Assembly (NCBI GenBank): GCA_030524705.1
Contig: JAUNGD010000013.1
Coordinates: 1-64,000, forward strand
Origin: Lachnospiraceae bacterium
Lineage (GTDB): Bacteria > Bacillota > Clostridia > Lachnospirales > Lachnospiraceae
Direction: 5' to 3'
DNA: 64,000 bases
Under the pieces are notes generated by a model, which saw only the letters and a list, made by a program, of their open reading frames with translations, was not told the origin of the DNA and did not search any database. Positions within the stretch are counted from its first letter, which is position 1; each line of letters starts with the position of its first letter. Both the position numbers and the translations under genes were made by a program. Shown piece after piece: positions 1-54,850 of the stretch.

Positions 1-156
1 TCTGTACTTTTCTATTTTCGTACTCTTTTATTTCTGTACTAGCATATCTCTGTATGATTCCCGCATCATTTTAATTTCAGGTCAATATATTTCTGCGTTC
101 CCTGCGCCCGTATCATTCCTCCGAATCGGCCTTAAAAGCCTTCTTCCGAAGCAGCC
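1..156. other. Non-coding window edge
   Basis: No open frame with a ribosome binding site and no clear hairpin terminator is visible. The stretch lies downstream of azlD, which is read from the minus strand. Two short similar segments containing GCCTTAAAA occur at about 130-165, the second running into the azlD 3' end. Confidence 0.5.
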
Positions 157-1172: not shown

Positions 1173-1214
1173 TTCTTTTTTCTCTTCATTCCATTCTATT
1201 TCACACTGAAACCC

Positions 1215-2090: not shown

Positions 2091-2103
2091 CTTGTATTCG
2101 TCC

Positions 2104-2634: not shown

Positions 2635-2667
2635 AAGAAACTCTCCTTTACCTTCAAATGATCCCTT

Positions 2668-3660
2668 TTACTGCGTAATCTCGTCAATTCGCTTCAGCTC
2701 ATCCTCCGTAAACGGGGTACGCTTTACAATACGAACATTGTCCTCAATCTGTGAAGGCCTGGAGGCCCCTATAAGCACGCTGGTAACCGCACCGTCCCGC
2801 AGGATCCAGGACAGAGCCATCTGAGCCAGGGACTGTCCGCGCTCCTGCGCCAGCTCATTCAGCGCCCGGATCTGCTGCAGCTTCTCCGGAGTCAGGTCAT
2901 TTTCATGCAGGAAGCGGCCGTCGGCCTTCATCCGGCTGTCCTGGGGAATTCCGTTCAGATAGCGGTCTGTCAGCATCCCCTGAGCCAACGGGCTGAAGCA
3001 GATGATACCCTTTCCGCCCTGCACTGCGGCCTCCTTCAGGCCGTTTTTCTCAATCGTCCTGTCAAAAATCGAATAACGGTTCTGGTTGATGATAAACGGA
3101 CATTTCAGATCCTCCAATATCTCTGCCGCCCGCTTCATGGCCGGCCCGTCATAATTGGAAATTCCCACGTAAAGGGCCTTGCCGCTTCTGACAATTTGAT
3201 CCAGAGCCAGCATCGTCTCCTCCAGAGGCGTTTCCGGATCCATCCGGTGATGATAAAAAATATCCACATAATCCAGTCCCAGGCGCTTCAGGCTCTGATC
3301 CAGGCTGGCAATCAGATACTTCCGGCTGCCCCAGTTGCCGTAAGGCCCCTCCCACATATCGTAGCCTGCCTTTGTACTAATAATCAGCTCGTCCCGGTAA
3401 GCGCTCAGCTCGTTTTTCATGATGCGCCCGAAATTGGTCTCCGCACTGCCATATTCCGGCCCGTAATTATTTGCCAGATCAAAATGTGTGATACCGTTGT
3501 CAAATGCGGTAAAACACAGCTCCTTCATATTCGTATACGGTGCATCTGTCCCGAAATTGTGCCACAGTCCGAAGGATACCTCCGGCAGAAGCAAGCCGCT
3601 GCGCCCGCACCGGTTGTACTTCATATCCTGGTACCTGGCTTTGCCCGCAATATACGTCAT
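2668..3660 (-). CDS. Aldo/keto reductase (YghZ/MgrA type)
   Basis: 330-residue NADPH-dependent aldo/keto reductase. The family tetrad can be picked out: Asp and Tyr in HFDLANNYGP, Lys in IISTKAGY, and His in DIFYHHRMD. The C-terminal VLIGASRPSQIEDN segment is the cofactor-binding region. The overall pattern with MKYNRCGRSGLLLPEVSFG at the start matches the L-glyceraldehyde-3-phosphate reductase (YghZ/Gpr) subgroup, which detoxifies methylglyoxal and related aldehydes. The start at 3660 has an AAGGAGG site seven bases upstream. Precise substrate is inferred. Confidence 0.88.
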   Translation of the reverse strand: MTYIAGKARYQDMKYNRCGRSGLLLPEVSFGLWHNFGTDAPYTNMKELCFTAFDNGITHFDLANNYGPEYGSAETNFGRIMKNELSAYRDELIISTKAGYDMWEGPYGNWGSRKYLIASLDQSLKRLGLDYVDIFYHHRMDPETPLEETMLALDQIVRSGKALYVGISNYDGPAMKRAAEILEDLKCPFIINQNRYSIFDRTIEKNGLKEAAVQGGKGIICFSPLAQGMLTDRYLNGIPQDSRMKADGRFLHENDLTPEKLQQIRALNELAQERGQSLAQMALSWILRDGAVTSVLIGASRPSQIEDNVRIVKRTPFTEDELKRIDEITQ

Positions 3661-3800
3661 AAACTATCCTCCTTGTATTTTCCTTTTCTTTCCGACAGGG
3701 CAGAGAATCGGTTCCCATGCCGCTTCATCGGAAAAAGGACATACCGACAATGCCCGCAGCACTGTTTCGGAATGCCCTTCTGCTCTCATCGTTATTTTGT

Positions 3801-4058
3801 TTATTTTGTTGCGCTTAAATAATCTTCTATATTCTGAACCGCTTCTGTTTCATCTGATCCATTTGCTGTCACCACGACTGTTTCACCGGACGCCAGTCCC
3901 AATGTCATCATCCCCATGATGCTCTTTGCATTGACCGTCCGACCTTCGCTCTCCACATGAATCTCACTCTCATACTGACTGGCCACCTGAACCAATAATG
4001 CTACTGGTCTGGCCTCCAGACCACTAGGAAGCTGAATCGTGATTTCTCTCTTGGTCAT
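3801..4058 (-). CDS. HPr-like (Crh-type) phosphocarrier homologue with Glu15
   Basis: 85-residue HPr-fold protein. The site that holds the phosphorylated His15 in true HPr reads GLEARPVA here, so codon 15 is GAG (Glu), while Ser46 in NAKSIMGMMTLG is retained. This is the pattern of Bacillus Crh, which has Gln15 and only the regulatory Ser46. The location directly after whiA also matches crh in Bacillus. I infer a role in HPr kinase/CcpA carbon regulation rather than in sugar phosphotransfer. The start codon lies inside the 3' end of whiA, with AAGGAGG upstream, giving a 35-bp overlap. A canonical HPr must be encoded elsewhere if the cell has a working PTS. Confidence 0.85.
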   Translation of the reverse strand: MTKREITIQLPSGLEARPVALLVQVASQYESEIHVESEGRTVNAKSIMGMMTLGLASGETVVVTANGSDETEAVQNIEDYLSATK

Positions 4059-5022
4059 AATAGTATTCCTCCTTGTTTTGCCTTAACTCCTCTGCCAACT
4101 GGCTAAGCTTTCTCAGTCTGTGATTTACCCCGGATTTACCTACCGGAGGATCCAGCATTTCCCCCAGCTCCTTCAATGACGCATCCGGGTGAGACAGCCT
4201 GAGAACGGCGACATCCGCAAGGCCAGCGGGCAGCTTTTCCAAACCCTTAGCTGCCTGCAGATAACGAATGTCCTCCATCTGTCTTACTGCTGCGTTTACC
4301 GTCTTGTTGATATTCGCCGCTTCGCAGTTCACCTTGCGGTTCACATTATTTCTCATGTCGCGCACGATCCTGATGTTTTCCAGATCCATCAGAGATATAT
4401 GCGCTTCCATAATATTCAGCATATCAACAATCTGAGCTCCTTCTTTAATATACACAATATAATGCTTTTTACGCTGTACAATTTTGGCATCCGGGCCAAA
4501 TGTATGTATCAGTGTCTGTAGCTGCAATGCCCGCTCCCGGGAGGCGCATACGATCTCAAAATGGTATGATTTCTCCGGGTTGCTGATGGAGCCTGCGGCC
4601 AGAAATGCGCCTCGGATAAAAGCTCTCCGGCAGCACGACTTCTGTACCAGAAGCTGATTCGCCGGTGATACATGCTCAGCTACCTCTCCGTCTGCATCCA
4701 GCAGCTTCAGCGCACGCAAAATGTTGATAACAGAATCGTGGTCTTTCACCAACACTGTATATATCTGACTGCTCTTTTTATTCCCTTTATGTAAAGACAC
4801 GGAAACGTTACATCTTATATTAAATGCTTTTTGCAATAATGTAAAGCACTTTCTCGCAACGGAAACGTTTTCAGTACGAATTCTTATCAGATAACGGCCA
4901 AATGAAGAAATACAAACCGAACCGCACATTCCCACGATGGCGGCAAGCTCCGCCAGATTGCAGTGTCTGGCTGTCGAAATCTGTCCTGAAAGCTCATTTT
5001 TCACATCCCCTGAAAATGACAT
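4024..5022 (-). CDS. whiA: WhiA DNA-binding regulator
   Basis: 332-residue WhiA protein: an N-terminal pair of LAGLIDADG-like domains (AFIRGAFLAAGSISNPEKSY) and a C-terminal helix-turn-helix (LRLSHPDASLKELGEMLDP with PVGKSGVNHRLRKL). WhiA binds DNA and links cell division, chromosome organisation and, in actinobacteria, sporulation. I choose the ATG at 5022 because the upstream in-frame start is a GTG two codons earlier with no better ribosome site. It follows rapZ by about 60 bp; the yvcK gene present between these genes in Bacillus is missing. The 3' end overlaps the Crh-like gene. Confidence 0.95.
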   Translation of the reverse strand: MSFSGDVKNELSGQISTARHCNLAELAAIVGMCGSVCISSFGRYLIRIRTENVSVARKCFTLLQKAFNIRCNVSVSLHKGNKKSSQIYTVLVKDHDSVINILRALKLLDADGEVAEHVSPANQLLVQKSCCRRAFIRGAFLAAGSISNPEKSYHFEIVCASRERALQLQTLIHTFGPDAKIVQRKKHYIVYIKEGAQIVDMLNIMEAHISLMDLENIRIVRDMRNNVNRKVNCEAANINKTVNAAVRQMEDIRYLQAAKGLEKLPAGLADVAVLRLSHPDASLKELGEMLDPPVGKSGVNHRLRKLSQLAEELRQNKEEYYYDQERNHDSAS

Positions 5023-26182: not shown

Positions 26183-27328
26183 TTACCCATTCTGTAAAAG
26201 CATATTCATAAACACCCTTATTGCTTTAAAATATTTTTCCAATTCCACGCATTCATTCGGCTTATGAGCCATAACCGGATCACCCGGCCCAAACAAGAGT
26301 ACCTCTGCCTCCGGCAAATTCCGGGCAAGGATTGACGCATCTGTAAAAAAATTGATTCCGGTGCTTTCTACCCGAAGCCCCTCCTGTTCCATACTTTTAC
26401 GTATTTTCTTTATAAGAAATGCCTCTGTCCCGATTTCGATTGCCCGCCGGTTGTTCTTTATCAAAATCTCCGCCTGAAGCTGTCCTTTACAAGACTGTTC
26501 TTCTTTTGAAATTATCTGCTTTGCTTTATTCAGGACCATCCTCTCCGTCAAACCCGGGGTGATACGAATATCCATTAATACCGTACAGGTTTCAGGGATC
26601 ATATTCGGCGCCGTACCTCCTGTGATCTTTGTAATATTGGCGGTGGAGTCTCCCAAAAGCCCATGAGAAAATGTTTCCACATATTGCTTTATTTTTTCTG
26701 CAATATGCCAGGCATGCTCCACTGCGCTGCAGCCCTGTTTCGGATAAGCGCCGTGACTGGTCTTTCCATGGATCTGCAACTCCAGCCAGATACATCCTTT
26801 CTGCGCCATCCCCAATTTCAGTCCTGTGGGCTCGCTGATTAGTATTCTTGAGCAGCCTGCTGTCAGTTTCTGTCTGCACACAAACTCCGCCCCCAGACCG
26901 GATTTCTCTTCGTCGCATGTTCCGATAAAGAGAATCGTATTCTCCGGCTTTTTCCCCGTCCGGTAAAATTCACAGAGAGCATAAACCATGGCGCAAAGGC
27001 CGCTCTTCATGTCGCTGGCTCCCCGGCCGTAAAGAACTCCATGTTCCAGAACCGGTTCAGCCGGATCTGTCTTCCAATCCTGCAGCGACCCATACGGAAC
27101 CGTATCCAGATGTCCGTTCCAGATAACCGGTTTCCCGGAAGTCTCCCCCTCCAAAACCGCTGTGACATTTGCGTGGGTCTCATCCAGCCTGTCTACTTTT
27201 GCCGAAACTCCTGCTATCCGAAAATACTCACAGAGGTATTCTGCCACCTTTCCTTCATCATTCTGCCCGTTCACGCTGGGAATTGCCATTACATTTTTTA
27301 AAAGCTGTACCGCTTCCTGTTCATTCAT
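26183..27328 (-). CDS. M20 family metallohydrolase (ArgE/DapE-like)
   Basis: 381-residue zinc-dependent M20 amidohydrolase/peptidase. Metal and catalytic motifs are visible in order: NGHLDTVP (HxD), GRGASDMKSG (bridging Asp), GTCDEEKSG (catalytic Glu pair), SEPTG, the dimerisation-domain His in KTSHGAYP, and the final metal His in MAHKPNEC. The start at 27328 is chosen for AGGAGG seven to eight bases upstream; the longer frame adds an unrelated Cys-rich extension. Third M20 enzyme of the ABC operon but only distantly like the other two. It lies after lacI and could be cleaving the imported compound. Substrate unknown. Confidence 0.85.
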   Translation of the reverse strand: MNEQEAVQLLKNVMAIPSVNGQNDEGKVAEYLCEYFRIAGVSAKVDRLDETHANVTAVLEGETSGKPVIWNGHLDTVPYGSLQDWKTDPAEPVLEHGVLYGRGASDMKSGLCAMVYALCEFYRTGKKPENTILFIGTCDEEKSGLGAEFVCRQKLTAGCSRILISEPTGLKLGMAQKGCIWLELQIHGKTSHGAYPKQGCSAVEHAWHIAEKIKQYVETFSHGLLGDSTANITKITGGTAPNMIPETCTVLMDIRITPGLTERMVLNKAKQIISKEEQSCKGQLQAEILIKNNRRAIEIGTEAFLIKKIRKSMEQEGLRVESTGINFFTDASILARNLPEAEVLLFGPGDPVMAHKPNECVELEKYFKAIRVFMNMLLQNG

Positions 27329-27475
27329 TTTGCCGACCTCCTGTTTTCTGGTCTCTATTAAATATCCTTTTCCACGAAACCGTTCTATTTGATACGCAAA
27401 TCCAAAGCGTCTGTAGCAAAATAGCGTCTGTACACAGAAGCAACACTGTTTCCGCATACCGACGCTATCATTCCG

Positions 27476-28498
27476 CTAATTTCGGTCCATCACTGATTTT
27501 CTTTCTATCAATTCTGTTTCAAAAATGATACGCTCCTCCTGATTTTCATTGCCGACTTCTTTATTGATAATTTTCCGCGCCGCGACCCGCCCAAGCTGCT
27601 CCGTCGGCTGTTTGATTGTTGTCAGAGGTACGCTAAGGAATTCGTCCACAAATATATCATCGTATCCAATGATTGACAAATCTTCCGGGATCCGAATTCC
27701 CTGGGCCTGCAGCCATTTCATGGCCCCGATAGCCATCATATCATTAAAAAAGAAAACTGCATCAACATGAAGTCCTTTCCGAAACAAAACATCAATCGCC
27801 TGCTCGCCACTCTCAAAAGTATACTTTCCCTCCACAACCAAATCCGGATTATACGGGATTTCAAATTCATCCAGAGCTTTGATATATCCCTCCAGACGCT
27901 GCTGAGAGTCGATCAGATTCGAAGGTCCTGTAATACAGGCAATATTCCGGTGTCCAAGCTTCAGCAGGTAATTTACAGCCTGATATCCTCCCAGAACATG
28001 GTCTACACAAACAATCCCAGCCTGCTTCGTCTCTATGTACCGGTCTACCAGGATATATGGAATCCTTTCATGATTCATAAAATCAATACATTCCTGAACC
28101 ATTTCAGCCGTAGATTCAGATGCCATACCCAGGATGATGCCGCTGACACCCTTATCCGCCAGCATCCGAAGATTCTGCATATCCTTTGAATGCTTATCAT
28201 TAGAATTACACAGGATCACATTCCAGTTGTACTTCTGGCATTCATCCTCTACCCCCTTTGCAAGAGATGAGAAGAAAGCATTTCGTATATCAGAAACCGC
28301 CAGGCCTATCGTATCCGTCGAGCCTTTCACAAGGCTGACCGCCACCAGATTGGGCCGATAATTCAGCTTTTCCGCTGTATCCAGAATCAGCTTCCGATTT
28401 TCCTTTGATACACGGCAGGGTCTGTCATTCAGCACCTGTGAAACAATTGTGATTGACAGATTTGTCGCATCTGCGACCTGTTTCAGTGTGACTCTCAT
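27476..28498 (-). CDS. LacI family transcriptional regulator
   Basis: 340-residue regulator with an N-terminal helix-turn-helix (VTLKQVADATNLSITIVSQVLND, residues 3-25) and a periplasmic-binding-like ligand domain (TDTIGLAVSDIRNAFFSSL onward). The C-terminal part includes SIIGYDDIFVDEFLSVPLTTIKQP, typical of the family. Located near the end of the ABC/M20 operon, it is the natural candidate to bind the two LacI-type palindromes at 36538 and 36661, and so to control its own synthesis. The inducer is probably the imported substrate or a breakdown product. Confidence 0.92.
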   Translation of the reverse strand: MRVTLKQVADATNLSITIVSQVLNDRPCRVSKENRKLILDTAEKLNYRPNLVAVSLVKGSTDTIGLAVSDIRNAFFSSLAKGVEDECQKYNWNVILCNSNDKHSKDMQNLRMLADKGVSGIILGMASESTAEMVQECIDFMNHERIPYILVDRYIETKQAGIVCVDHVLGGYQAVNYLLKLGHRNIACITGPSNLIDSQQRLEGYIKALDEFEIPYNPDLVVEGKYTFESGEQAIDVLFRKGLHVDAVFFFNDMMAIGAMKWLQAQGIRIPEDLSIIGYDDIFVDEFLSVPLTTIKQPTEQLGRVAARKIINKEVGNENQEERIIFETELIERKSVMDRN

Positions 28499-28516
28499 TT
28501 TGCTACCTTCAGAACT

Positions 28517-29263
28517 TTAGCGCACCAGATAATCAATCATATTTTTGAATAATACATCATAACATTTCCAATTACAGAATTCAGGCGGTGCCCAATGAGG
28601 CGCACAATCTGTTGCGAAAATTCCGCTTCTTCCTTTTCCATAGTCTGCAAACGCAATGAACGGGTCACCGCAAATCTCGGCTACCAGTTCTGCCTCTGGC
28701 TTCAGAACACTTGTATTATATCCTAACACATTTGGCCAGTCTTTTTCAATACCTTTCATTACCGGATGATCTTCCTTTACTGTCACCGGAACAACACCCT
28801 CACAGTGCTCCATACGATCATCATACGGATACAATTGTACTGGCAGAACATCCTGTACAGCAGTATGGCACCATTTTCCCTGACCGCCGATTCCTGAGAA
28901 TGTCATATACCCCCCGATCATCAGCAGGCTTCCGCCCTGCAATACATATTCCTTCAGCAAACTGCAACGATTCGGCATTTTTACGCTGGCTGCAAAGGTT
29001 TGCGGCGGAATCAGCAGTGTATCCGCGCCTATATCCGACAAGATGATACACTCATACTGCTGCAATTCTTCCAGGGTAAAGGGGAATTTTTCTGCCGCAT
29101 CATGATTCGGAAGATATACCAGCTCATAGCCGGCTCTCTCAATTGCCTTGTCGATCCATCCCAGTCCCGTTTCATATTTTGAAGAAAAGAAACTGTTGAA
29201 GCCTTTTACTTCCATCATAGTCGCTGACCAGGACTCACCTGCCAGCAATACTTTTTTTGCCAT
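28517..29263 (-). CDS. GATase1-like protein (PF07090-type)
   Basis: 248-residue protein resembling the putative glutamine amidotransferase-like family formerly called DUF1355. The recognisable segments are the N-terminal VLLAGESW, a YLPNHDAAEKFP strand-turn, LLMIGGYMTFSGIGGQGKW and the C-terminal FATDCAPHWAPPEF. The usual nucleophile Cys of class I amidotransferases is missing at the elbow (GGYMTF), so it is probably not a glutaminase. It sits 17-19 bp from its neighbours between the permease and lacI genes. Function unknown; members are often found with sugar transport genes. Confidence 0.7.
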   Translation of the reverse strand: MAKKVLLAGESWSATMMEVKGFNSFFSSKYETGLGWIDKAIERAGYELVYLPNHDAAEKFPFTLEELQQYECIILSDIGADTLLIPPQTFAASVKMPNRCSLLKEYVLQGGSLLMIGGYMTFSGIGGQGKWCHTAVQDVLPVQLYPYDDRMEHCEGVVPVTVKEDHPVMKGIEKDWPNVLGYNTSVLKPEAELVAEICGDPFIAFADYGKGRSGIFATDCAPHWAPPEFCNWKCYDVLFKNMIDYLVR

Positions 29264-29279
29264 AACTTAACCTCCAAAC

Positions 29280-30257
29280 TTAATTTGTATTCACTTTTTC
29301 TACCAGCTGGTTCATCACATTATTCACCACAATAGATACAACCAAAATAACTCCGGTGATTGCCAGAATCCAGATAGAATTGATGCCTGCCATCTGCAGA
29401 CCGGACTTCAGCATCGTAATGAGAACGGTGGCTACAATTACACCGCTCAAATGGCCGCGGCCGCCTTCTACTGCAGAGATACCTCCAAGCATGGCCACCG
29501 TTATCGCATTCATTTCCATTCCGCTTCCGGCGTCTGCTCTGGCCGTCATCAGCCAGGAACAGTTGATAATCGCACTGAAGGCGGTCAACACACCTGCCAA
29601 TACAAACACAAAGAAAATCGTCTGCTTAGTTTTGACGGCCGCAAATTTTGCAGCCTCTGCATTGTCACCGGTAAGATAAATATTGCGGCCGAATCTTGTC
29701 TTATATATCAGAAACAGAACCACAATAAGCACTGGAATGACCATAAACAGGATCTGGTTCGGAACACCAAAGGTCATTTCCAGGGACAGCCACTTAAAGC
29801 TCTCCGGAAAACCGGATATTGCAACACCATTCGTAACATACAGCGCCAGAGAAGCAAAAACGTACTGCGTACCCAGAGTTGCAATCAGAGACGGCATATT
29901 AAAAAGTCCCACCAGAATTCCATTTACCGCACCCAACAATGCGCCCGCTGCCAGCGTGATTAAAATAGCGGCCAACAGACTGCCTGTCTTCTGGTAAGTC
30001 AGGCCGAGGATTACGCAGCACAGGCTCATAATCGAACCAATCGAAATATCAATTCCCCCGGGAATTACCATAATAACTAGGGCTTCTCCTACTGCCATTA
30101 AAAACAGGGTCGCTCCGAATTGCAAAATTTCGATCAAATTGTTCACCTTTGCGAATTCCGGGTTCAGAGCCGACAAAATTGCGATTTCAATTATCAGAAG
30201 GAATACGAGGAATTTGGCACGGCTCTTTGCCAAAGGAAGAATCACTTTTTTCATCAT
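29280..30257 (-). CDS. Ribose-type ABC transporter permease 2
   Basis: 325-residue polytopic protein of the RbsC/branched-chain permease superfamily, as used by CUT2 sugar importers. Family signature GGIDISIGSIMSL near residue 70 and the cytoplasmic-loop motif TGDNAEAAKFAAV with GGRGHLSG are present. It overlaps the other permease gene by four bases. The two permeases differ clearly, so the membrane domain is probably a heterodimer. Substrate cannot be read. Confidence 0.9.
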   Translation of the reverse strand: MMKKVILPLAKSRAKFLVFLLIIEIAILSALNPEFAKVNNLIEILQFGATLFLMAVGEALVIMVIPGGIDISIGSIMSLCCVILGLTYQKTGSLLAAILITLAAGALLGAVNGILVGLFNMPSLIATLGTQYVFASLALYVTNGVAISGFPESFKWLSLEMTFGVPNQILFMVIPVLIVVLFLIYKTRFGRNIYLTGDNAEAAKFAAVKTKQTIFFVFVLAGVLTAFSAIINCSWLMTARADAGSGMEMNAITVAMLGGISAVEGGRGHLSGVIVATVLITMLKSGLQMAGINSIWILAITGVILVVSIVVNNVMNQLVEKVNTN

Positions 30258-31234
30258 GCAGCTCCTTTCTCAGCAGGCTTTGCAGATCTTCGCATCGCAC
30301 TGACTGAATCAAACAGTACGCAGATAATCATCAGCATACCGACGAAGAAATTCTCCAGAAGAGACGGAATGCCCATAATAACAATACCGTTTTTCAGAAA
30401 TCCAATGAAAAACACACCCGCCAGTGTACCGATTACAGACCCTCTGGTACCGCTTCCTTTCGCTCCAATACCGCCAATCGTAACTGCTGCAATACACTGT
30501 ATCGCCGTATTTGTACCAATCGTCATTTCAACGCTTCCCATCCGAGCGATATATAAAAGTCCCGTCAATCCTGCCAAAGCACCCGTCAGACAATACGAGC
30601 CAAACCGAATTCTGGCCACGTTGATGCCGCTCAGCACAGCAGCCTCTTCGTTACAGCCAATCGCATAAATATGACGCCCGTATTTTCTGTACATAAATAT
30701 GTAATAGAAAACAGCGTAAACAAGTAACACCAGGAACAGAAGCACCGGAATACCTGCCACTTTTGCGGTGGTAATTCCACGGAAAGAAGGTTTCAGGCTG
30801 GTCATCCACTTGCCGCCCAAGAGTCCAAAAATAACCGCTTTCCAAACGTTACCGGTCGCTAAGGTAGTCAACATATCCGGAATATGTAATTTTGAAATAA
30901 TCAGCCCGTTTACTGCTCCTACCAAAATGCCAATTGCAGCCGCTGCCGGAATTATCAATAACGTACTTATTCCTGCCATAATCATATATCCTACCACAAC
31001 CGCAACAACTCCCATAACAGCACCTACTGAAAGATCAATACCTCCCAACAGCATGACAATGGTCATACCAATACTGATGATTGCCACCTCGGAGTTATTC
31101 TGCACGACGCGGATAAAATTGTTTACATTCGCAAAATTCGGTACAAAGATGGAAAACAAAATAATTTCAGCTACCAGAAGGGCGATAGCAAAGCCTTCTC
31201 GTTTAGTAGGATGCGGAATATACTTTTTGAACAT
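30254..31234 (-). CDS. Ribose-type ABC transporter permease 1
   Basis: 326-residue RbsC-type permease with the signature GGIDLSVGAVMGV, the loop motif AIGCNEEAAVLSGI and GGIGAKGSGTRGSVIG. It starts two bases after the M20 gene at 31237 and overlaps the next permease as ATGA. It forms the channel with that permease, powered by the ATPase at 33899. The gene order ATPase, M20, M20, permease, permease is unusual, because the hydrolase genes interrupt the transporter genes. Confidence 0.9.
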   Translation of the reverse strand: MFKKYIPHPTKREGFAIALLVAEIILFSIFVPNFANVNNFIRVVQNNSEVAIISIGMTIVMLLGGIDLSVGAVMGVVAVVVGYMIMAGISTLLIIPAAAAIGILVGAVNGLIISKLHIPDMLTTLATGNVWKAVIFGLLGGKWMTSLKPSFRGITTAKVAGIPVLLFLVLLVYAVFYYIFMYRKYGRHIYAIGCNEEAAVLSGINVARIRFGSYCLTGALAGLTGLLYIARMGSVEMTIGTNTAIQCIAAVTIGGIGAKGSGTRGSVIGTLAGVFFIGFLKNGIVIMGIPSLLENFFVGMLMIICVLFDSVSAMRRSAKPAEKGAA

Positions 31235-31236
31235 GA

Positions 31237-32562
31237 TTATCCTTCCTTTCCCTCCTCTTCTTCACACATGCACCAGTCCATGATTGTAGACGCAATGACC
31301 TTTGCACACAGAATATATTCCGGAATCTCGATTCTCTCATCCGACTGATGGCAAAGTTTTTCATCCCCAGGTCCCATGATCAGCGTCGGGATCCCTACAT
31401 TGCAGAACCATCCCATATCTGCATGAGCACAGCTCCCTGCTACGGTTGTTTCCGGATACAGATCGGTAAGACAATTTTTTGTTACTTTGAAAAAGTCTTC
31501 CGTGTCAAAGGTCTCCCCGCAGTCCGCATCAAGGATCCACTCAATCCTCGGCGGATTTTCTTTCAGATACGGATCTGTCTGTGCAACTGCATAAACGAAA
31601 TCTTCTATTTCTTTCTTGATCTTGCTTCCCAGGCCGTTCTCATCCTTATCCTGGGGCAGATACTGTGCATCAAAAGTCAGCTCTGCATGATTTGCAAAAG
31701 TGGTCGGATATTCCCCAGCTTCAAATTGTGCAAAATAAACCTGACACGGAATCGGAAGATATTTGTGTCCCTTTGTGCGGCTCCAGTTTGCATTAAAGTC
31801 CTTGAAATGCTCCAGGAGATAAGCCGCTTTGTCAATGGCATCCACAGCGCCGCCTTTTCTCCAGTCCTCCCGCTTCAGCTCAATGTGCCCGGCCTGTCCT
31901 TCTATGATAATCTTTCCCCAGAGAATACCTCTGCAAAGCGGTGCAAGCTTCATATGGGTCGGCTCTGTGATGATACAGCCGTCTGCCCGGTAACCCTTTG
32001 CCACCAGCGCCAGCGTACCCATACCTCCGGCCTCTTCATCCACTACTGTTCCAATTTTCACATCACCCTTCAGGCGGATGCCAGATTCCTGAATCGCCTT
32101 CATAGCTATTGTCATGGCGGCAATTCCGCCCTTCATATCGCAGGTGCCCCGGCCATAAATCGTATCGCCTACTTGGTCCGCCGAAAACGGATCATGGCTC
32201 CACTTTGAACCTGTCTGCACCACATCCATATGCCCGGAAAGCATAATGGAACGGCCGTCCCCAGCGCCCTTCAGCTCACCATACAGATTGGGACGGTCCT
32301 CGAAGGTGTGCTCGGCCATATATCCGGCCTTGTCCTTATAAGCAATCAGCTCCTGGGCATCCGGATAAGAAAGCTCTGTGACAAATCCCATCTCTTCTAT
32401 ATATTTCTGCAAATACCGCTGTGCGTCGCCCTCACCCTTCAATACTTCTTCATCATCAAAATAAGGATTTACGCTGGGAATTTTGATAAGGTTTTTCAGC
32501 AGATCCGCCGCTTCAACTGTATGCTCATCCAGCCATTTATAAACTTTATTCTTATCAGCCAT
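31237..32562 (-). CDS. M20 family metallohydrolase, tandem paralogue B
   Basis: 441-residue M20 enzyme. Motifs are SGHMDVVQ (metal HxD), GRGTCDMKGG (bridging Asp), VVDEEAGGMGT (catalytic Glu), TEPTHMKL, AGHIELK (dimerisation-domain His) and LCHQSDERI (final metal His). All catalytic positions are intact. It is clearly a duplicate of the neighbouring gene at 32572, sharing long blocks such as HTFEDRPNL and CRGILWGK, but the two have diverged. It resembles ArgE/DapE-type deacylases; reaction and substrate are not established. Confidence 0.88.
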   Translation of the reverse strand: MADKNKVYKWLDEHTVEAADLLKNLIKIPSVNPYFDDEEVLKGEGDAQRYLQKYIEEMGFVTELSYPDAQELIAYKDKAGYMAEHTFEDRPNLYGELKGAGDGRSIMLSGHMDVVQTGSKWSHDPFSADQVGDTIYGRGTCDMKGGIAAMTIAMKAIQESGIRLKGDVKIGTVVDEEAGGMGTLALVAKGYRADGCIITEPTHMKLAPLCRGILWGKIIIEGQAGHIELKREDWRKGGAVDAIDKAAYLLEHFKDFNANWSRTKGHKYLPIPCQVYFAQFEAGEYPTTFANHAELTFDAQYLPQDKDENGLGSKIKKEIEDFVYAVAQTDPYLKENPPRIEWILDADCGETFDTEDFFKVTKNCLTDLYPETTVAGSCAHADMGWFCNVGIPTLIMGPGDEKLCHQSDERIEIPEYILCAKVIASTIMDWCMCEEEEGKEG

Positions 32563-32571
32563 ACTCTCTCC

Positions 32572-33879
32572 TTACTCTGCCACTTCGCACCAGTCCATGA
32601 TAATGGAGGCAATCATTTTCGTGCAGGTTATCATATCTTCTATCGTGACAAATTCATCCGAATGATGCGCCAGCCTTGGGTTTCCGGGGCCTATATTAAT
32701 AGTAGGGATCCCTACATTACAGAACCAGCCCATGTCAGTATGGAATCCAATCCCCTCTATCCCGCTTTCCGGATGTACTTCTCTGGCGCTTTTTACTACT
32801 TGTTGGAAAAACGGCTGGTCATCCAGTGTCTCGCCGCAGTCAGCGTCAATCATCCACTCAATATAAGGCGGATTTTCCCGCAGCCAGTCATCCGTCTGTG
32901 CCACCGCTGCCACAAAATCTTCCAGTTCTTTTTTTACTTTGCTTCCCAGTCCGTTTTCATCCTTTTCCCTCGGAAGATACTGTGCATCAAATACGATCTC
33001 TGCATGGTTGGCAAAAGTCGTTGGGTACTCTCCTGCATGGAACTCTGCCAGATTAACCTCGCAGGGCAGCGTCATATATTTATGCGTTTTTGTAATCGCC
33101 CAATCCTGATTGAGATTCTTGATCGCCCGCAAATATTTAAGTCCCTTTTCAATGGCATCTACTGCTCCGCCTTCCCGCCAGTCGCCCTGTTTCAGTTCGA
33201 TATGTCCGGCCCTTCCTTCAATGACAATTTTGCCCCAAAGAATCCCCCGGCACAGCGGTGCAATCTGCAGGTCAGTAGGTTCTGTGATCAGACATGCATC
33301 CGCCCGGTTTCCTGCGGCCATCAACGCCAGCGTACCCATGCCTCCGGCTTCTTCATCCACCACCGTGCCGATCTTTACATCACCTTTTAACTTCAGCCCG
33401 GCGCCCTGAATAGCCTTGACAGCCATTGTCATAGCCGCATCTCCGCCCTTCATGTCCACTGCTCCACGTCCGTAGATTTTTCCGTCGGCAACAGTTCCTC
33501 CGAAGGGATCATACGTCCATTTTGTTCCCCGCTGTACTACATCAATATGGCCGGAAAGCAGAATAGATTTCCCTCCGCCTTCTCCGACAAGTACGCCTAT
33601 AAGATTCGGTCGGTCTTCAAATTTGTGATCCGCGTAATATCCCGGTTTGCCCTCATATTCTTTCAATTCCTCTGCATTCGGATACTGAAACTCTGTTTTC
33701 ATCCCCATCGCATCAAGATGCTTCCGAAGTACTGCCTGTGTCAGTCCTTCCTTCTTGTAGCAATCTTCTTCATCAAAATAGGCATTGACACTGGGAGCCT
33801 GAATCAGCTCCTGAAGAAGCTTTACCACCTCGTCCTGATGCTGATCAATCCAGTCATAGACCTTTTGCTTGTTGTCCAT
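32572..33879 (-). CDS. M20 family metallohydrolase, tandem paralogue A
   Basis: 435-residue paralogue of the gene at 31237 with the same intact motifs: SGHIDVVQ, GRGAVDMKGG, VVDEEAGGMGT, TEPTDLQI, AGHIELK and LAHHSDEFV. It begins 20 bp after the ATPase gene. Retention of two similar hydrolases between transporter genes suggests related but distinct substrates, or a heteromeric enzyme. Cytoplasmic: no signal peptide is seen. Confidence 0.88.
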   Translation of the reverse strand: MDNKQKVYDWIDQHQDEVVKLLQELIQAPSVNAYFDEEDCYKKEGLTQAVLRKHLDAMGMKTEFQYPNAEELKEYEGKPGYYADHKFEDRPNLIGVLVGEGGGKSILLSGHIDVVQRGTKWTYDPFGGTVADGKIYGRGAVDMKGGDAAMTMAVKAIQGAGLKLKGDVKIGTVVDEEAGGMGTLALMAAGNRADACLITEPTDLQIAPLCRGILWGKIVIEGRAGHIELKQGDWREGGAVDAIEKGLKYLRAIKNLNQDWAITKTHKYMTLPCEVNLAEFHAGEYPTTFANHAEIVFDAQYLPREKDENGLGSKVKKELEDFVAAVAQTDDWLRENPPYIEWMIDADCGETLDDQPFFQQVVKSAREVHPESGIEGIGFHTDMGWFCNVGIPTINIGPGNPRLAHHSDEFVTIEDMITCTKMIASIIMDWCEVAE

Positions 33880-33898
33880 AAAACCACCTCACATCTTC

Positions 33899-35401
33899 TT
33901 AGTCGTCCAGGTTCAGCGCATATTTCAGAATATTCTTTTCCGTCGCGTTTTCCCTGTCAAAATGAGCCGTGATCACGCCGTTATGCATTGCGATCACTTC
34001 ATCGCTGAGTGCCATAACCTCCGGCAAATCGGAAGAAATCAGTATAACTGCTACTCCCTGCTGCGCCAGTCCCATAATATATTTGTGAATCTCTGTCTTC
34101 GTTGCGACGTCAATACCTCTCGTCGGCTCATCCAGAATGATGACCTTCGGCTCCTCCAGAAGCCATCTGCAAAGCAGTACCTTCTGCTGTCCGCCGCCGC
34201 TGAGCATCATAATCATGTCTTCCTGAGACTCTACTTTTATACTGTATTTATCAATATTGTCCTGAACTGCCTGCCGCTCCTTTTTGCTGTTCATAACGCC
34301 CAGACGATTAGAAAGGATACTCAAAAACGAAGCGCTCATATTTTTCCGAACATCATGAGCCGCAAATAATCCCTGGGTACCGCGATCCTCCGGGACGTAG
34401 AATATCCTGCGGTTTACCGCCTGCTGCGTCGTAATGTGACTGATGTCCTCATTTTCAAATATAATCGTACCCTTTTCTGCATTTGTTTCCCCAAATATTG
34501 CCCGGGCCATCTCAGATCTGCCGGAACCAACCAACCCATAGAAGCCCAGTACCTCTCCTGGTCTTAACGTAAAGCTGATGTCTTTATATGTAGTTCCATA
34601 AGTGAGACCCTCTACTTTCAGGATCTCATCATTTTTCATATAATCTCTCGGTATATAAATGTTACGGTTAATTTTTCTTCCGGACATCGCCTCGATTACG
34701 TTCTCTTCTGTAGCCTCTGCGGCCTTCATCCTGCCGGTCACACATCCGTCCCGCAGAATAATAATGTCATCGGAAATCCGCAGAATCTCCGGCACACGAT
34801 GGCTGATATAAAGAATGCTTACCCCCTTTGCCTTTAGATCAAATATGATCTGAAACAGCTTCTCAGATTCTGCATAGCTCAGAATCGAAGTCGGCTCATC
34901 TAAAATCAGGATCTTGCACTGACGGAATACGCCTCTGGCGATCAGAACAAGCTGCTGATTACCTATGGATAATCTTCCCATCGGAACAGACAGGATGTCC
35001 TCACTCAAATCCACCATTTTCAATGCTTCTACAGCCTGTGCATACATCTCATTCCATTTAATTCCGCTTTTATCAGAAATCTCGTTACCCATAAATATAT
35101 TTTCCAGCACAGACATATCGGCAAATACATTTGGTTCCTGATAAACAATAGAAATTCCTGCCGCTGTCGCATCCAGAGGTGAATTTAACGCCAGCTTTTT
35201 ACCTTCAAGATAAATATCGCCCGTATCGTTTTTGTATGCTCCGGCAATAATTTTCATCAGAGTCGATTTACCGGCCCCGTTCTCCCCCATCACCGAGAGG
35301 ATTTCTCCTTTTCTCAACCGGAAACTGACATTTGAAAGTGCATGGTTTCCACCAAAGGATTTATTTATTTCTTTTGCTTCCAAAATAATATTGTCTGCCA
35401 T
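33899..35401 (-). CDS. Sugar-type ABC transporter ATPase (RbsA-like)
   Basis: 500-residue protein with two ATPase domains in the RbsA/MglA/AraG manner. First domain: Walker A GENGAGKST, signature-like LSIGNQQL and Walker B ILILDEPTS. Second domain: degenerate Walker A GLVGSGRSE, signature LSGGGQQKV and Walker B VIILDEPTRGIDV. It energises the permeases at 29280 and 30254 for import of the compound bound by the protein at 35485. It follows that gene by 83 bp, the longest gap inside the transporter part of the operon. Confidence 0.93.
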   Translation of the reverse strand: MADNIILEAKEINKSFGGNHALSNVSFRLRKGEILSVMGENGAGKSTLMKIIAGAYKNDTGDIYLEGKKLALNSPLDATAAGISIVYQEPNVFADMSVLENIFMGNEISDKSGIKWNEMYAQAVEALKMVDLSEDILSVPMGRLSIGNQQLVLIARGVFRQCKILILDEPTSILSYAESEKLFQIIFDLKAKGVSILYISHRVPEILRISDDIIILRDGCVTGRMKAAEATEENVIEAMSGRKINRNIYIPRDYMKNDEILKVEGLTYGTTYKDISFTLRPGEVLGFYGLVGSGRSEMARAIFGETNAEKGTIIFENEDISHITTQQAVNRRIFYVPEDRGTQGLFAAHDVRKNMSASFLSILSNRLGVMNSKKERQAVQDNIDKYSIKVESQEDMIMMLSGGGQQKVLLCRWLLEEPKVIILDEPTRGIDVATKTEIHKYIMGLAQQGVAVILISSDLPEVMALSDEVIAMHNGVITAHFDRENATEKNILKYALNLDD

Positions 35402-35484
35402 TTTTTCTTCCTCTTAAAAATTGGGCATCCCGACCCCAAATTTTCCTGTCAGGATGCCCTGTCACATAATGGTAAGTCTAAATT

Positions 35485-36480
35485 TTAGAAATCAAAATCA
35501 TCTACATTTTCTGGAGTTATTATCAGAGGTTCGCCAAGAAGGAGAATTCCTTTTTCGGCGTTATAAGTCACTTCTTTATCAATCGCCTCAATATACTGAC
35601 TCTCTTCAAATTCATTTCCAACTACTGCCTGATATCCAGCCCAACACGTCAGATATCCCAAGGCCTCTGCATCCCAGAGAACAGAAACCTGCATGATGCC
35701 GTCTTTCATATATTCATTCACAGTTGCCGGAGAACCATAACCTGTTACCTTTATTTCACCGGCCATCCCCGCCTGATCTACTGCCTGGCAAACGCCTGGA
35801 ATTGTAGAAGAAGCAACACCTATAAGACCTTTCAAATCTGGATTAGCCGTCATCAGATCCTGTGCCTGCTGAAGTGCTTCTTCACTGCTTCCAGTTGGCG
35901 TATATTTTACATCCAAAATTTCAATATCGGGATAATTTTCTGCCGCATAATCCTGTATTGCTGCAATCCAAGCATTTAGGTTCGTTGCAGTAGCAACTCC
36001 TGAAACAATACCTACCTTTCCTTCTCCACCCATCTGCTGTGCCAGTTCCTCCATCAAAGTTTCGCCCAGTGCCACGTCATCTGCCTGTGCTACATAGAAA
36101 TCTCTCGTGCTATCTGTTGCATCTGAATCAGAAGTAAAAGCAACGATTCCCGCCTCCTGTGCCTTCTCAATTGCCGGATTGGTAGCTGAGCTATCAATAA
36201 CAGCAAGGCTGATTGCATCAACGCCGCGCCGGATCAGTGAATCAATCTGAGTTACCTGCAAATCAGCACCTTCTACGGTATCGCCCGCGTAAATCCACTC
36301 ACAGCCAAGATCCTCTGCCGCTCTCTGTCCGCCCTCATCCATAGCAGTAAAGTATGGAATACCGATCAACTGCGGAACAAAAGCTACCTGAACAGTGTCT
36401 TCATCCGCCATTGCCACCATTGAGAAACAGGATGCAGCCATAGCTGCCGTCAACAAGATACTAACCACTTTCTTTTTCAT
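35485..36480 (-). CDS. ABC transporter substrate-binding protein (CUT2, RhaS/LsrB-like)
   Basis: 331-residue secreted binding protein. An N-terminal signal sequence (MKKKVVSILLTAAMAASC) could be read as a weak lipobox around Cys18 or as a signal peptidase I site after AMA. The mature part, starting VQVAFVPQLIGIPYFTAMDEG, has the periplasmic-binding fold of the ribose/rhamnose/AI-2 group, including GVDAISLAVIDSSATNPAIEKAQ and the hinge VTGYGSPATVNEYMKDG. First gene of the LacI-controlled operon. The ligand is unknown; the neighbouring M20 hydrolases argue for an amide-containing or acylated compound rather than a plain sugar. Confidence 0.9.
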   Translation of the reverse strand: MKKKVVSILLTAAMAASCFSMVAMADEDTVQVAFVPQLIGIPYFTAMDEGGQRAAEDLGCEWIYAGDTVEGADLQVTQIDSLIRRGVDAISLAVIDSSATNPAIEKAQEAGIVAFTSDSDATDSTRDFYVAQADDVALGETLMEELAQQMGGEGKVGIVSGVATATNLNAWIAAIQDYAAENYPDIEILDVKYTPTGSSEEALQQAQDLMTANPDLKGLIGVASSTIPGVCQAVDQAGMAGEIKVTGYGSPATVNEYMKDGIMQVSVLWDAEALGYLTCWAGYQAVVGNEFEESQYIEAIDKEVTYNAEKGILLLGEPLIITPENVDDFDF

Positions 36481-36537
36481 ACTGAATCCTCCTTACTTTT
36501 GAATAAATTTATCTTAATCCTCATGGATTAGATTTAA

Positions 36538-36555
36538 TGATAAAACGTTTTATCA
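36538..36555. promoter_or_regulatory. LacI-type operator O2 (perfect palindrome)
   Basis: TGATAAAACGTTTTATCA is a perfect 18-bp palindrome with the central CG typical of LacI-family operators. It lies in the 5' leader of the operon, 58 bp before the start of the binding protein gene and 123 bp centre-to-centre from the promoter operator. Confidence 0.85.
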
Positions 36556-36650
36556 TTTGATAAAATTAAAAGGCGCTACGAGCTGCGCTGCTTTCTTTGC
36601 GTCTTCCTATAGATTTTCTTTATTTTTCTTTATATATTTATTTTAGTAAG

Positions 36651-36679
36651 ATTATATATTAGATAAAACGTTTTGTCAA
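36651..36679 (-). promoter_or_regulatory. ABC/M20 operon promoter with LacI operator O1
   Basis: Minus-strand TTGACA (36679-36674) and TATAAT (36656-36651) are separated by 17 bases, an exact consensus. The spacer and most of the -35 box are occupied by a near-palindrome, AGATAAAACGTTTTGTCA (36661-36678), matching the operator at 36538 except for its outer bases. A bound LacI protein would block RNA polymerase directly. Expected transcription start is near 36644. Confidence 0.88.
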
Positions 36680-36833: not shown

Positions 36834-38490
36834 AAGGGCACTGAAAAAGACACGTTTTCAATAAGCAAAGCGTGTCTTTTTTTAGATTTCAATTCCCAAA
36901 ACGGTAAAACAACTAATGACAAAATAAAAATACCGGGCATTAACTCGGTATTACCGTTACAATTCTCTTCATATTTACGACAATGGCAGTAAAGTATGCC
37001 TGTAATCGCATAGCAGCTAAACCCACGGAATCTGCTCTTTGAAACCCGTGAGCTGTTTTCATTTCCCCGCTCTTTTCTTCAATTCGATGTCTGATATCAA
37101 GCTTCTTCTTGAAAATTTCACTGCTTTCAAACTCTAGTCGCGCTTTGTGATATGCGTTCGGCTGAGTTATATTATATGTATGTGTTTTTGACTTTCCAAC
37201 TTTGCATTGTTCATGAAGAGGACATTTGGCGCAGATTTTAGCTGAGAAGCAGTATTTTTCATATGTATTTCCATTAGAAGCTTTTTTGTAATCTGCCCGC
37301 ATTGCCAGATGTCCTGCCGGACATTGAAGCATATGTGCATCTTTGCTGTAGCTGAAACCTTCTTCCAACTTAGTATTAGCTGCTGCCGCTACTGCTGAAT
37401 TTGTTCTGGCATATAAAGTAACGGCTTCTTTCTCACACACTTCAAGATTCTCATCGCTGACATATGCCATATCTCCAATTACTTCTTTTACGTCTGCACC
37501 ATTTTCCTTGCTTTTTCTAATAAGTTCTGGAAGTTGTATTCCATCTGGCTTTGCTCCATCTGTAACCTTAATTCCAGTAATCATTCGATCTTCACTCATG
37601 GCGATGTGTGTTTTGTATCCAAAAATTTCTTTGTTGGGGTTTTGTGTCCGAAACGCGCATCCTCGTCATCCTTAGAACGGATTTTTCTGATCTGGTCAGT
37701 ATCCAACAGTTCTTTGATCCGTCCATACATTTTTTGTATTTCTTCGTTGCCGCTTTGCTCAACGCCATCTTGAATATTTGCCAACAACTCGTATGTATAG
37801 GCTATCTCCTCGGAAATATCTGCCTCCCATGATGGTTTGTTTGGAAATTTCTCAGACAAATCGTATGCATATTTATATATTTCTTTCCTGAGATTTTTTG
37901 TCAATTCCCGCAATACTTGCGGCACGCTTTTGGGCCTGACTGCCGCTTCAACATGTGTCGCATCCACGATGATAGTTCCAGATTTGATCAGCCCTTTCTG
38001 AATTGCCTGCTGGATTGTCTCTTTGAGCATATCTTCTAATATATCTTCTGTTATCCGGGTTTTCCTGAATTTTGTCAAAAGGCTGGGGGCAATCATCTTA
38101 TCCTCCGGAGACAAGCCAAGGAAATATTTATATGCCATATCTGTTTGTGCACTTGAGATAAGGCGCTCATCTGAAAGATCATACAGTTTCTTCAAAAACA
38201 ACAGTTTAAACATCATTTCCGGTTCCTTTGCCGGATGCCCGAAACGTTCGCAATACTGCTTACGAAGCATAGGATTTACAAAGCTGAAATCAATGTTGTC
38301 CTTCAACTTCCTCAATATATGATTTTTCGGTATAATCGCATCATAAAGTCCCTGATACTGGGATAAGTCCAATGTCATCTGCGTATTATCTTTCAGCATT
38401 TTCATCCCACCTTTCCATATGATTATTATACCTGCATGAAACAGAAAAAGCCAGTTCTGCGTATGCAGATCTGACTTTTTCAGTGTCCTT
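36834..38490. mobile_element. IS1182-family insertion sequence
   Basis: An element of about 1.66 kb bounded by imperfect terminal inverted repeats: AAGGGCACTGAAAAAGACA at 36834 and, on the opposite strand, AAGGACACTGAAAAAGTCA ending at 38490. It contains one transposase gene read on the minus strand and split by a frameshift. Just inside the left end, AAAAAGACACG (36845) and CGTGTCTTTTT (about 36870) form a terminator-like stem. No clear target duplication was found in the flanks. Confidence 0.8.
36940..38405 (-). pseudogene. Frameshifted IS1182-family transposase
   Basis: The N-terminal part (start at 38405, MKMLKDNTQMTLDLSQYQGL) includes the first catalytic Asp in IVDATHVEA. It leaves frame in a run of five T residues at 37621-37625, ending KKFLDTKHTSP. 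The downstream frame continues with YKTHIAMSEDRMITGIK and carries the second Asp in VIGDMAYVS and the Glu in EEKSGEMK. One added T restores KKFFGYKTHIAM. The run is short and does not look like a classical slippery heptamer, so a mutation is more likely than programmed frameshifting, though the latter cannot be excluded. Confidence 0.8.
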
Positions 38491-38533
38491 GAATTATAAA
38501 GCATTCCAGAGTTATTCCTGAACTTTCATAGAA

Positions 38534-39460
38534 TTATTTTATACAATTCATAATTACACTTATCATCATTTCTTTCTCTTTTGGATTTGATTCTGCAATC
38601 ATAATAGTAAGTGCCACAAGAGTATGATCATCAATTAACTTTTCTCCATTCTGAAACAACACACCATTTTTGTCTAAAAAATACAAAAACATGGTTGCCG
38701 CAATCCGCTTATTTCCATCAGAAAAACTGTGATTTTTCGTGACAAAATATAATAAATTTGCTGCCTTTTCTTCCAAAGTGGGATACAAATCTTTCCCAGC
38801 AAAGCTTTGGTAAATTGCACTAATACTTCCTTTGAAAGAATCATCCTTTTCATTCCCAAATAAAGAACTACTGTTTCCAAATTTCATATTATCAATTATT
38901 TTTCTACATTCCTCATAAGTCAGAATATACGTTGCCTTATTTCCCTTTGGTCGTATCATATTCTGATGATCGTAGGCATCCAACAGTTCCAATGCTTGAC
39001 TATATCTTTCTACCACTGTCAGCACCTGCTTAGTGTCTAGACTATTCTCTACTCTTTTCATAACTCGTATTACCTCATTTAACTGATTCATACGGTTATG
39101 ATTCACTGCATAACCCTTGATTATGTATTCTTTCAACACAGAATTTGCCCATTTTCTGAAAGCGACCCCTCGTTTAGATTTTACTCTATATCCTACTGAT
39201 ATAATTACATCTAAATTATAATATTTAGGCGGTCTGAAAGCTTTATTTTCACTTCTGTCGAAAATTTCGACAGAAGTGTTTTTGTCTAATTCACCTTCTT
39301 TAAATATATTACCAATATGATATGTTATAGAAGAACGTGCGGTATCAAATAATACAGACATCTGTTCTTGTGTCAGCCATACGGTTTCCTGATCTGGAGT
39401 AATTGGAACCTCCAATTCTATTTTATCATCTGTAAAAAGTACAATTTCATTTTCACTCAT
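38534..39460 (-). CDS. RhuM family protein with C-terminal Fic/Doc domain
   Basis: About 308 residues. The N-terminal two thirds match the virulence RhuM family (VWLTQEQMSVLFDTARSSITYHIGNIFKEGEL, then YYNLDVIISVGYRVKSKRGVAFRKWAN). The C-terminal third is a Fic/Doc domain with HSFSDGNKRIAATMFLYFL; the NKR form is nearer to Doc kinases than to AMP-transferring Fic proteins (GNGR). The function of RhuM proteins is unproven; they are common in mobile and defence regions. The gene is AT-rich and lies beside an insertion sequence. The start at 39460 is chosen for MSENEIVLF, with a purine-rich site upstream. Confidence 0.82.
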   Translation of the reverse strand: MSENEIVLFTDDKIELEVPITPDQETVWLTQEQMSVLFDTARSSITYHIGNIFKEGELDKNTSVEIFDRSENKAFRPPKYYNLDVIISVGYRVKSKRGVAFRKWANSVLKEYIIKGYAVNHNRMNQLNEVIRVMKRVENSLDTKQVLTVVERYSQALELLDAYDHQNMIRPKGNKATYILTYEECRKIIDNMKFGNSSSLFGNEKDDSFKGSISAIYQSFAGKDLYPTLEEKAANLLYFVTKNHSFSDGNKRIAATMFLYFLDKNGVLFQNGEKLIDDHTLVALTIMIAESNPKEKEMMISVIMNCIK

Positions 39461-39525
39461 ATACTTCTCTTCTGCAAATATCATATCTAACTGTTTCTGT
39501 TTTTTCTGATTTCTGATGTGCCTAT

Positions 39526-54687: not shown

Positions 54688-54804
54688 AAAAACGCAGATG
54701 TACAAATCCTGTACATCTGCGGACGATCTTCGTATCCACCCAATAGTCGCAACGTAACGGCGTGCGGTAGAAACATCTGGACCATCTCCCCAGACCTATA
54801 TCGG
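54688..54804 (-). ncRNA. Guanine-class purine riboswitch with terminator
   Basis: The aptamer spans 54804-54740. P1 is CCGATA with TATTGG, P2 is TCTGG with CCAGA, and J2/3 reads GTTTCTACC, identical to the consensus. Loop 3 has GCCGTTA and J3/1 is CGACTAT; the C in GACTAT at the position that pairs with the ligand fits guanine rather than adenine. A terminator follows: CGCAGATGTACA and TGTACATCTGCG (54721-54693) then TTTTTGG. Binding of guanine would free the terminator and switch the BMP transporter off. Confidence 0.88.
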
Positions 54805-54821
54805 ACAACACTACTGAATAA

Positions 54822-54850
54822 ATTCTAGCAATTTCGGCAACACTTGTCAA
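54822..54850 (-). promoter_or_regulatory. Promoter of the nucleoside ABC operon
   Basis: Minus-strand TTGACA (54850-54845) and TAGAAT (54827-54822) with a 17-base spacer. Expected start near 54815, about ten bases before riboswitch stem P1. Confidence 0.85.

Follow-up and report, generated by a model that had tools for sequence, protein, structure and literature searches.

A putatively LacI-controlled operon joining a CUT2 importer to M20 hydrolases in a Lachnospiraceae bacterium, and its possible link to nucleoside-like compounds

We analyzed a 64,000-nucleotide stretch of a Lachnospiraceae bacterium (assembly GCA_030524705.1, contig JAUNGD010000013.1, positions 1 to 64,000 of the forward strand; hereafter, the window) and, within it, a nine-gene operon that combines a CUT2-type ATP-binding cassette (ABC) importer with three M20 metallohydrolases, a protein of the PF07090 (‘GATase1_like’) family and a LacI-family regulator. 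The operon proves real; it is a rare, scattered form of CUT2 import tied to M20 hydrolysis, and it may belong to a broader catabolic theme for nucleoside-like compounds that PF07090 marks. The explanation we favor, held tentatively at a probability of about 0.45, is that the operon, under LacI control, serves to take up a nucleoside-like compound (an N-glycoside carrying amide bonds, or its aglycone) and to break it down in the cytoplasm. The substrate-binding protein (SBP) and the CUT2 transporter would import this compound, and LacI, bound at two operators, would keep a consensus promoter closed until an inducer arrives. The diverged tandem pair M20A and M20B, together with M20C, would then cut amide or carbamoyl bonds, with a further step falling to the PF07090 protein. 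Nucleoside hydrolase and PfkB genes on two other contigs of the same genome (C32 and C46) would deal in trans with any glycosidic bond and with the pentose set free. Our literature searches, limited to open-licence papers, turned up no description of this system.

All nine genes lie on the minus strand, in the order SBP, ATPase, M20A, M20B, permease A, permease B, PF07090, LacI and M20C; the open reading frame (ORF) layout and family model matches bore out the order, coordinates and families given in an earlier note on this DNA. The SBP (35485..36480), which is related to RhaS and LsrB, matches PF13407 (Peripla_BP_4, 213.4 bits), the ATPase (33899..35401) matches PF00005 (ABC_tran) in two stretches corresponding to two fused ABC domains, and permeases A (30254..31234) and B (29280..30257), which overlap by 4 bp, both match PF02653 (BPD_transp_2), a set of Pfam matches that identifies a CUT2 importer. 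PF01546 (Peptidase_M20) is matched by M20A (32572..33879), an ArgE/DapE-type metallohydrolase, by its tandem paralogue M20B (31237..32562, 62% identity to M20A) and by M20C (26183..27328). The PF07090 protein (28517..29263) scores 317.7 bits against its family model, and the regulator (27476..28498) matches PF00356 and PF13377. The intergenic gaps, taken from the longest ORFs, are 83, 19, 9, 2, -4, 16, 18 and 18 bp, and such tight spacing fits a single transcript. We moved the start of M20C from 27457 to 27328, since GGAGG precedes the latter position and the homologue in a related locus (L109) begins there; with this start, the LacI-M20C gap measures 147 bp. The gap between the SBP and ATPase genes contains a candidate attenuator, an inverted repeat GGGCATCC...GGATGCCC followed by AATTTTT (35423..35459, minus strand), which was spotted by eye and was not listed by an automated repeat scan with a loop limit of 8.

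Ahead of the SBP gene stands a promoter, TTGACA-17-TATAAT (36651..36679, minus strand), that matches the consensus at 12 of 12 positions. Of the promoter-like sites on either strand between 25500 and 37000 (24, against 17.7 expected), no other reaches this score. Two LacI-type operators accompany it: operator 1, AGATAAAACGTTTTGTCA (36661..36678, no strand assigned), covers part of the -35 box and the spacer, and operator 2, TGATAAAACGTTTTATCA (36538..36555, likewise) is a perfect 18-bp palindrome in the leader, from which operator 1 differs by two mismatches. Two such sites in the 64-kb window compare with 0.01 expected. The operon thus has a CG-centered palindromic operator at its promoter, the feature by which we recognized LacI operons, and the LacI control proposed in the earlier note fits the operator-like sites that overlap the promoter and lie in the leader. 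That note placed the end of the operon at 36679, where the -35 box begins, and left the operators unmentioned. Judging from the sequence, LacI would bind at these sites, and a DNA loop between them, 123 bp apart, is possible.

Elsewhere in the genome, we found two operator-like sites with one mismatch, both on contig C72. One lies where a gene for an EamA-type transporter begins. The other, one mismatch from the window core, precedes an unrelated zinc dehydrogenase-CUT2-LacI operon (L127, 5155-10995) by 38 bp. When two mismatches were allowed, the pattern occurred 36 times in this genome versus 97 times for a reversed control, so that only near-exact sites are meaningful. Across 18 operon starts, CG-centered palindromes near the first gene were seen in three, those of the window and of loci L062 and L115; in the latter two, AAAACGTTTT-centered palindromes like the window operators precede the first gene by 59 and 115 bp.

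We next turn to the hydrolases. M20A, M20B and M20C all combine the PF01546 match with the eight conserved positions that we take to hold the metal-binding and catalytic roles of the family; in M20A, H111, D113, D142, E176, E177, E200, H226 and H405 are all kept, and in our alignments the eight positions do not vary among the 20 M20A-type and related proteins compared, and M20C and three of its relatives share them. The earlier note held that the imported molecule carries a bond cut by these enzymes, and named M20 genes lying mostly away from the transporter in relatives as an outcome that would speak against it. This is not what we observed: all 11 M20A-clade genes recovered by profile searches (8 loci) adjoin CUT2-type importer genes. 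With the M20 residues intact and the M20A clade beside CUT2 genes, the proposal is plausible, amide hydrolysis being the reaction that the sequences would predict.

In a tree, the M20 copies of the window and of a Lachnospiraceae metagenome-assembled genome (L007) sort into pairs A and B, which unite to the exclusion of L062 with 94/91 support, and the M20 pair of Pelolinea (L008) is a separate duplication (100/99). Divergence is strongest over the final 83 positions in each of the three tandem pairs (46-49% identity), so the copies may differ in substrate preference. The Pelolinea pair is 81-91% identical outside these positions (46% within them), a pattern that makes gene conversion possible. 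Position 379 shows an F/A difference between first and second copy in the window, L007 and L008, which is suggestive only, given the separate Pelolinea duplication and the possible conversion. Relatives of M20A also neighbor M24-like genes and further CUT2 importers in this genome (L019, 9830-17318 on contig C85) and in another genome of the family (L018, in G152), a second theme of CUT2 importer plus amidohydrolase.

The cluster layout is rare and scattered. Among 200 genomes of the family, two had a match to the M20A protein at E 1e-100: the present genome and G152. The G152 relative occupies a different cluster, leaving the window cluster in the present genome only. A nine-row profile that includes M20A separated clade members, at 650 bits or more, from the other matches listed, at 346 bits or less. 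In genome samples that overlap one another, this profile matched 2 of 391 genomes of the class at E 1e-90 (the present one, and G377 at 346 bits), 2 of 47 of the genus (the present one and G152), 3 of 350 from the Pelolinea phylum, and 80 of 348 from the Sporolactobacillus order, where Sporolactobacillus itself is the only clade member. Scanning another genome collection returned seven loci, three of them inside the M20A clade, and added one cluster-bearing Lachnospiraceae genome, L007. A gene order conserved across Lachnospiraceae, which the earlier note proposed to look for, is not seen for this layout: the window layout is confined to its own genome among the 200, plus this one assembly from the other collection.

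What does recur, at 40-64% identity, is the core order SBP-ATPase-M20-permease-permease: Sporolactobacillus has it, as do three Chloroflexota genomes. This recurrence argues that the nine-gene arrangement is more than chance. This core is common to L007, L008, L009, L062 and L063. L007 is 63-83% identical to the window; its contig starts partway through the ATPase gene, and within the 12 kb examined the cluster is followed by no M20C match. The Pelolinea locus (L008) reads M20C-LacI-SBP-ATPase-M20-M20-permease-permease-PF07090, and octopine/nopaline-dehydrogenase-like and B12-binding-domain genes (2100-4867, minus strand) diverge from it. In Sporolactobacillus (L009), LacI comes first, the M20 gene is single and M20C stands behind PF07090. 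L062 gave no PF07090, LacI or M20C match within the stretch examined. In L063, PfkB precedes the core, PF07090 and an ADP-ribosylglycohydrolase-family gene follow it, and no M20C match appeared in the stretch compared; a repetitive, CRISPR-like stretch with repeated motifs in its ORF translations occupies about 1-3200 of this locus.

Plasmid relatives in Rhizobium etli, Pantoea (two loci) and Acidisoma combine an SBP (48-51% identity), an M20 (42-44%), two permeases and a single-domain ATPase. The R. etli locus also holds PF07090 and, in strain 8C-3 (L066, 6229-7407), a fusion of a LacI DNA-binding domain with a PfkB kinase; the Pantoea loci add PfkB, BtpA and TenA, with PF07090 in an adjoining operon, and the Acidisoma locus adds BtpA. 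The M20 gene of an Agrobacterium vitis locus (L070) is interrupted, and a fifth relative, the unannotated Rhizobium WYJ-E13 locus (L078), was left out of the comparison.

A clue to a nucleoside-like compound comes from PF07090. A role of this protein as a glutamine amidotransferase was considered and rejected. Class I glutamine amidotransferases rely on a Cys-His-Glu triad with a catalytic cysteine; in an alignment of 14 homologues none of the window protein’s cysteines is conserved, and it has GGY at the presumed nucleophile position. Invariant in these homologues are, among others, E10, D77, Y119, D148, D149, R150, E152, N183, D219, H223 and W224. The nearest solved chains, 2gk3 and 3soz, are both titled ‘cytoplasmic protein’.

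PF07090 occurs in 18 of 299 genomes of the family, the present one included, and we examined 17-19.5 kb around the 18 PF07090 loci of the 17 others. Nucleoside hydrolase (IUNH) genes are present in 8 of these loci, M20 in 12 (11 by PF01546, plus L106, whose M20 match is split over two frames), a PnrA/Bmp-type SBP in 8 and PfkB in 8. Within the 17 genomes, 8 of 24 IUNH copies fall inside PF07090 loci versus 0.13 expected, and 16 of 112 M20 copies (in 11 loci) versus 0.71 expected, figures that use rounded genome sizes and ignore the shared ancestry of these related genomes. Seven loci (L108-L114) carry a PnrA/Bmp-type SBP, an ATPase, two permeases, IUNH, M20 and PF07090 in a row, Bmp and IUNH being assigned by Pfam in all seven and the remaining genes by similarity to L109 (for one L112 permease the match is in two pieces). 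Their PF07090 proteins are 59-65% identical to the window’s; M20C is present in three of them (45-57%), LacI in two (38% and 42%) and PfkB in six. L106 and L107 instead pair M20 and an amidohydrolase with components of an energy-coupling factor (ECF) type importer and a LacI (46% and 49% identical to the window’s); the EcfT-like CbiQ is matched by Pfam in both, and the S component of L106 falls below its cut-off. L106 also has IUNH and PfkB, L107 also has M20C, and L117 combines a Bmp importer with an amidohydrolase. L118 and L119 hold a CUT2-type importer and M20, and L123 shows only PfkB besides PF07090 among the query families. The effector part of the window LacI is 39-50% identical to the LacIs of L106, L107, L109 and L111, versus 26-33% for six other LacIs (besides that of L007). 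The genome itself has IUNH at two places, with a PfkB gene close by at both: contig C32 has IUNH and a ribokinase above its curated cut-off, and contig C46 has a Bmp importer, IUNH and PfkB. These genes could serve a riboside; no operator-like core with one mismatch or fewer lies on C32 or C46.

Several points weigh against a nucleoside-like ligand, beginning with the relatedness of the genomes behind the enrichment figures. By Pfam, the window operon lacks the glycosidase, nucleoside hydrolase or phosphorylase, and kinase that would mark a nucleoside cluster, and no IUNH, ADP-ribosylglycohydrolase or PfkB match was found in the examined stretches of L007, L008, L009 and L062. Ten of the 18 PF07090 loci are without IUNH; six (L115, L116, L118, L119, L121 and L122) give CUT2-type importer matches, to which L115 adds an RpiB-like gene, and L120 shows PF07090 alone among the query families. 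The M20 beside PF07090 in L109 and L111 belongs to a separate clade, and the window SBP, a PF13407 protein, is unlike the PnrA type. CG-centered palindromes are seen in none of the seven PnrA and IUNH operons, nor in L008, L009 or L063; more slightly, the site before the dehydrogenase operon on C72 indicates that the operator motif is not specific to the window LacI.

Other ligands have to be weighed against this one. Uptake and breakdown of the quorum signal autoinducer 2 (AI-2), suggested in the earlier note as an AI-2-like ligand, has in its favor that the plasmid relatives carry the annotation ‘autoinducer 2 ABC transporter substrate-binding protein’ and that the LsrB model gives the SBP 148.6 bits. 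The cut-off of that model is 384 bits, however, and no LsrF/G/K-like family match occurs in the operon. At the six positions of SmLsrB (3ejw) that we take to contact AI-2, K, D, D, Q, P and A line up with Q37, D118, N167, L168, V222 and S224 of the window SBP, so that one aspartate is kept and five contacts are changed. All nine SBPs compared (window, L008, L009, L062, L063 and L066-L069) agree at Q37, D118, N167, L168 and S224, and position 222 is V throughout except for M in the two Pantoea proteins. We therefore reject AI-2, leaving it a barely credible ligand; the plasmid members of this SBP group are labeled AI-2-specific although their AI-2 contacts differ. The common contact pattern makes one kind of ligand plausible for the nine proteins and counts in favor of the nucleoside-like reading. 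PfkB genes accompany four of these nine, and 4 of the 10 CUT2/M20 clusters compared, window included (L063, L066, L067 and L069, one of them also with an ADP-ribosylglycohydrolase-family gene). The earlier note had reasoned that without a sugar kinase a plain sugar pathway is disfavored. The window operon indeed has none, but the argument is weakened, as PfkB-bearing clusters keep the window SBP contacts and related PF07090 loci hold IUNH and PfkB.

A somewhat unlikely alternative, raised in the earlier note, is that an acylated amino sugar or a sugar-amino acid adduct of the Amadori type is taken up and deacylated, with PF07090 and M20C acting on the same molecule. The nearness of the SBP to RhaS- and LsrB-type binders, the ArgE/DapE type of the M20s, PfkB in relatives and LacI control would all suit it; no recurring deglycase or amino-sugar gene was noticed in the clusters examined, though no search aimed at them was made, and the enrichment of PF07090 loci for nucleoside hydrolase speaks against it. 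Peptide or N-acyl amino acid scavenging, in which the M20 pair would form an aminoacylase- or dipeptidase-like heteromer with its own importer, seems improbable: it would account for the tandem pairs of the window, L007 and L008 and for the M24-like partners in L018 and L019, but leaves the PF07090, IUNH and PfkB associations unexplained, and CUT2 importers seldom carry peptides. We consider about equally improbable the salvage of a vitamin fragment along the lines of the thiamin-pyrimidine route, which uses an ABC importer, the M20 deformylase YlmB and TenA. TenA is found in both Pantoea loci and in three of four alphaproteobacterial PF07090 loci, and ECF-type components lie beside L008, L066, L106 and L107. 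Yet no TenA match was found in L007, L008, L009, L062, L063 or the window operon, whose families include no thiamin gene, a scan of the window gave no thiamin pyrophosphate riboswitch at the gathering threshold, and LacI control does not suit this route. Nor are the nearest Bacillales-order M20s YlmB: in 26 of 29 loci examined (of 85 matches) they adjoin CoA-transferase-like sequence, as judged from motif text, and they presumably correspond to yodQ.

Taken together, these results keep a nucleoside-like compound as our preferred substrate. A broader and rather doubtful extension is that PF07090 marks an undescribed catabolic module, in which exchangeable importers (PnrA-type, ECF and CUT2) are joined to likewise exchangeable glycosidase steps for ribosides with an amide- or carbamoyl-bearing base, e.g., modified nucleosides of RNA turnover such as N6-threonylcarbamoyladenosine. 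The window would then be the CUT2 version, and PF07090 would represent a novel kind of enzyme built on the GATase1 fold. The recurring link of IUNH, PfkB and M20 turns this orphan family, for which solved structures exist, into a testable pathway, and the nucleoside link names a small ligand panel for the SBP group.

As for its surroundings, the operon has a GC content of 46%, against 53% and 49% on its two sides, and just upstream lies a transposase in two adjacent ORFs (DDE_Tnp_1_6 and DUF772; 36940-38504, minus strand). Given both features, the operon was likely acquired by transfer. A RhuM/Fic-domain protein (38534-39484, minus strand) and a purine riboswitch (RF00167, 50.3 bits; 54724-54823, minus strand) are also found in the window.

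Among known systems, E. coli AbgAB/AbgT, with two adjacent M20 paralogues and an importer, resembles the window operon in this arrangement and differs in transporter class and regulator. The SBP aligns end to end with RhaS and LsrB binding proteins, but lies below both curated cut-offs (192.6 bits for RhaS, whose equivalog cut-off is 342.25), with the AI-2 contacts changed; its nearest PDB chain is 5bq3. Alphaproteobacterial plasmid clusters of LacI, CUT2-type importer, phosphotriesterase, PF07090, ribokinase and BtpA, sometimes with TenA, share, mostly by annotation, the CUT2-type importer and PF07090, as well as LacI in three of four and an M20 gene in two of four; they differ in having one permease, a phosphotriesterase, and BtpA and a kinase in the cluster. 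Closer to home, L108-L114 share PF07090 and, where present, M20C and LacI related to the window’s, but have a PnrA-type importer, a nucleoside hydrolase, mostly a kinase in the cluster, and an M20 of another clade. Lastly, the Salmonella STM3547-STM3550 locus has a DMT transporter and a phosphotriesterase, whereas the window has a CUT2 importer and M20s and no kinase in the operon. In the report on that locus, STM3548 is a predicted glutamine amidotransferase for which the authors found no study of function, and the carbon source of the locus is called unknown (PMC13432705). The solved chain 2gk3 is probably STM3548, which would itself be of PF07090 type. The likeness to the window would then lie in such a protein adjoining a PfkB ribokinase, as the same report describes RikA, the PfkB enzyme next to STM3548, phosphorylating ribose (PMC13432705).

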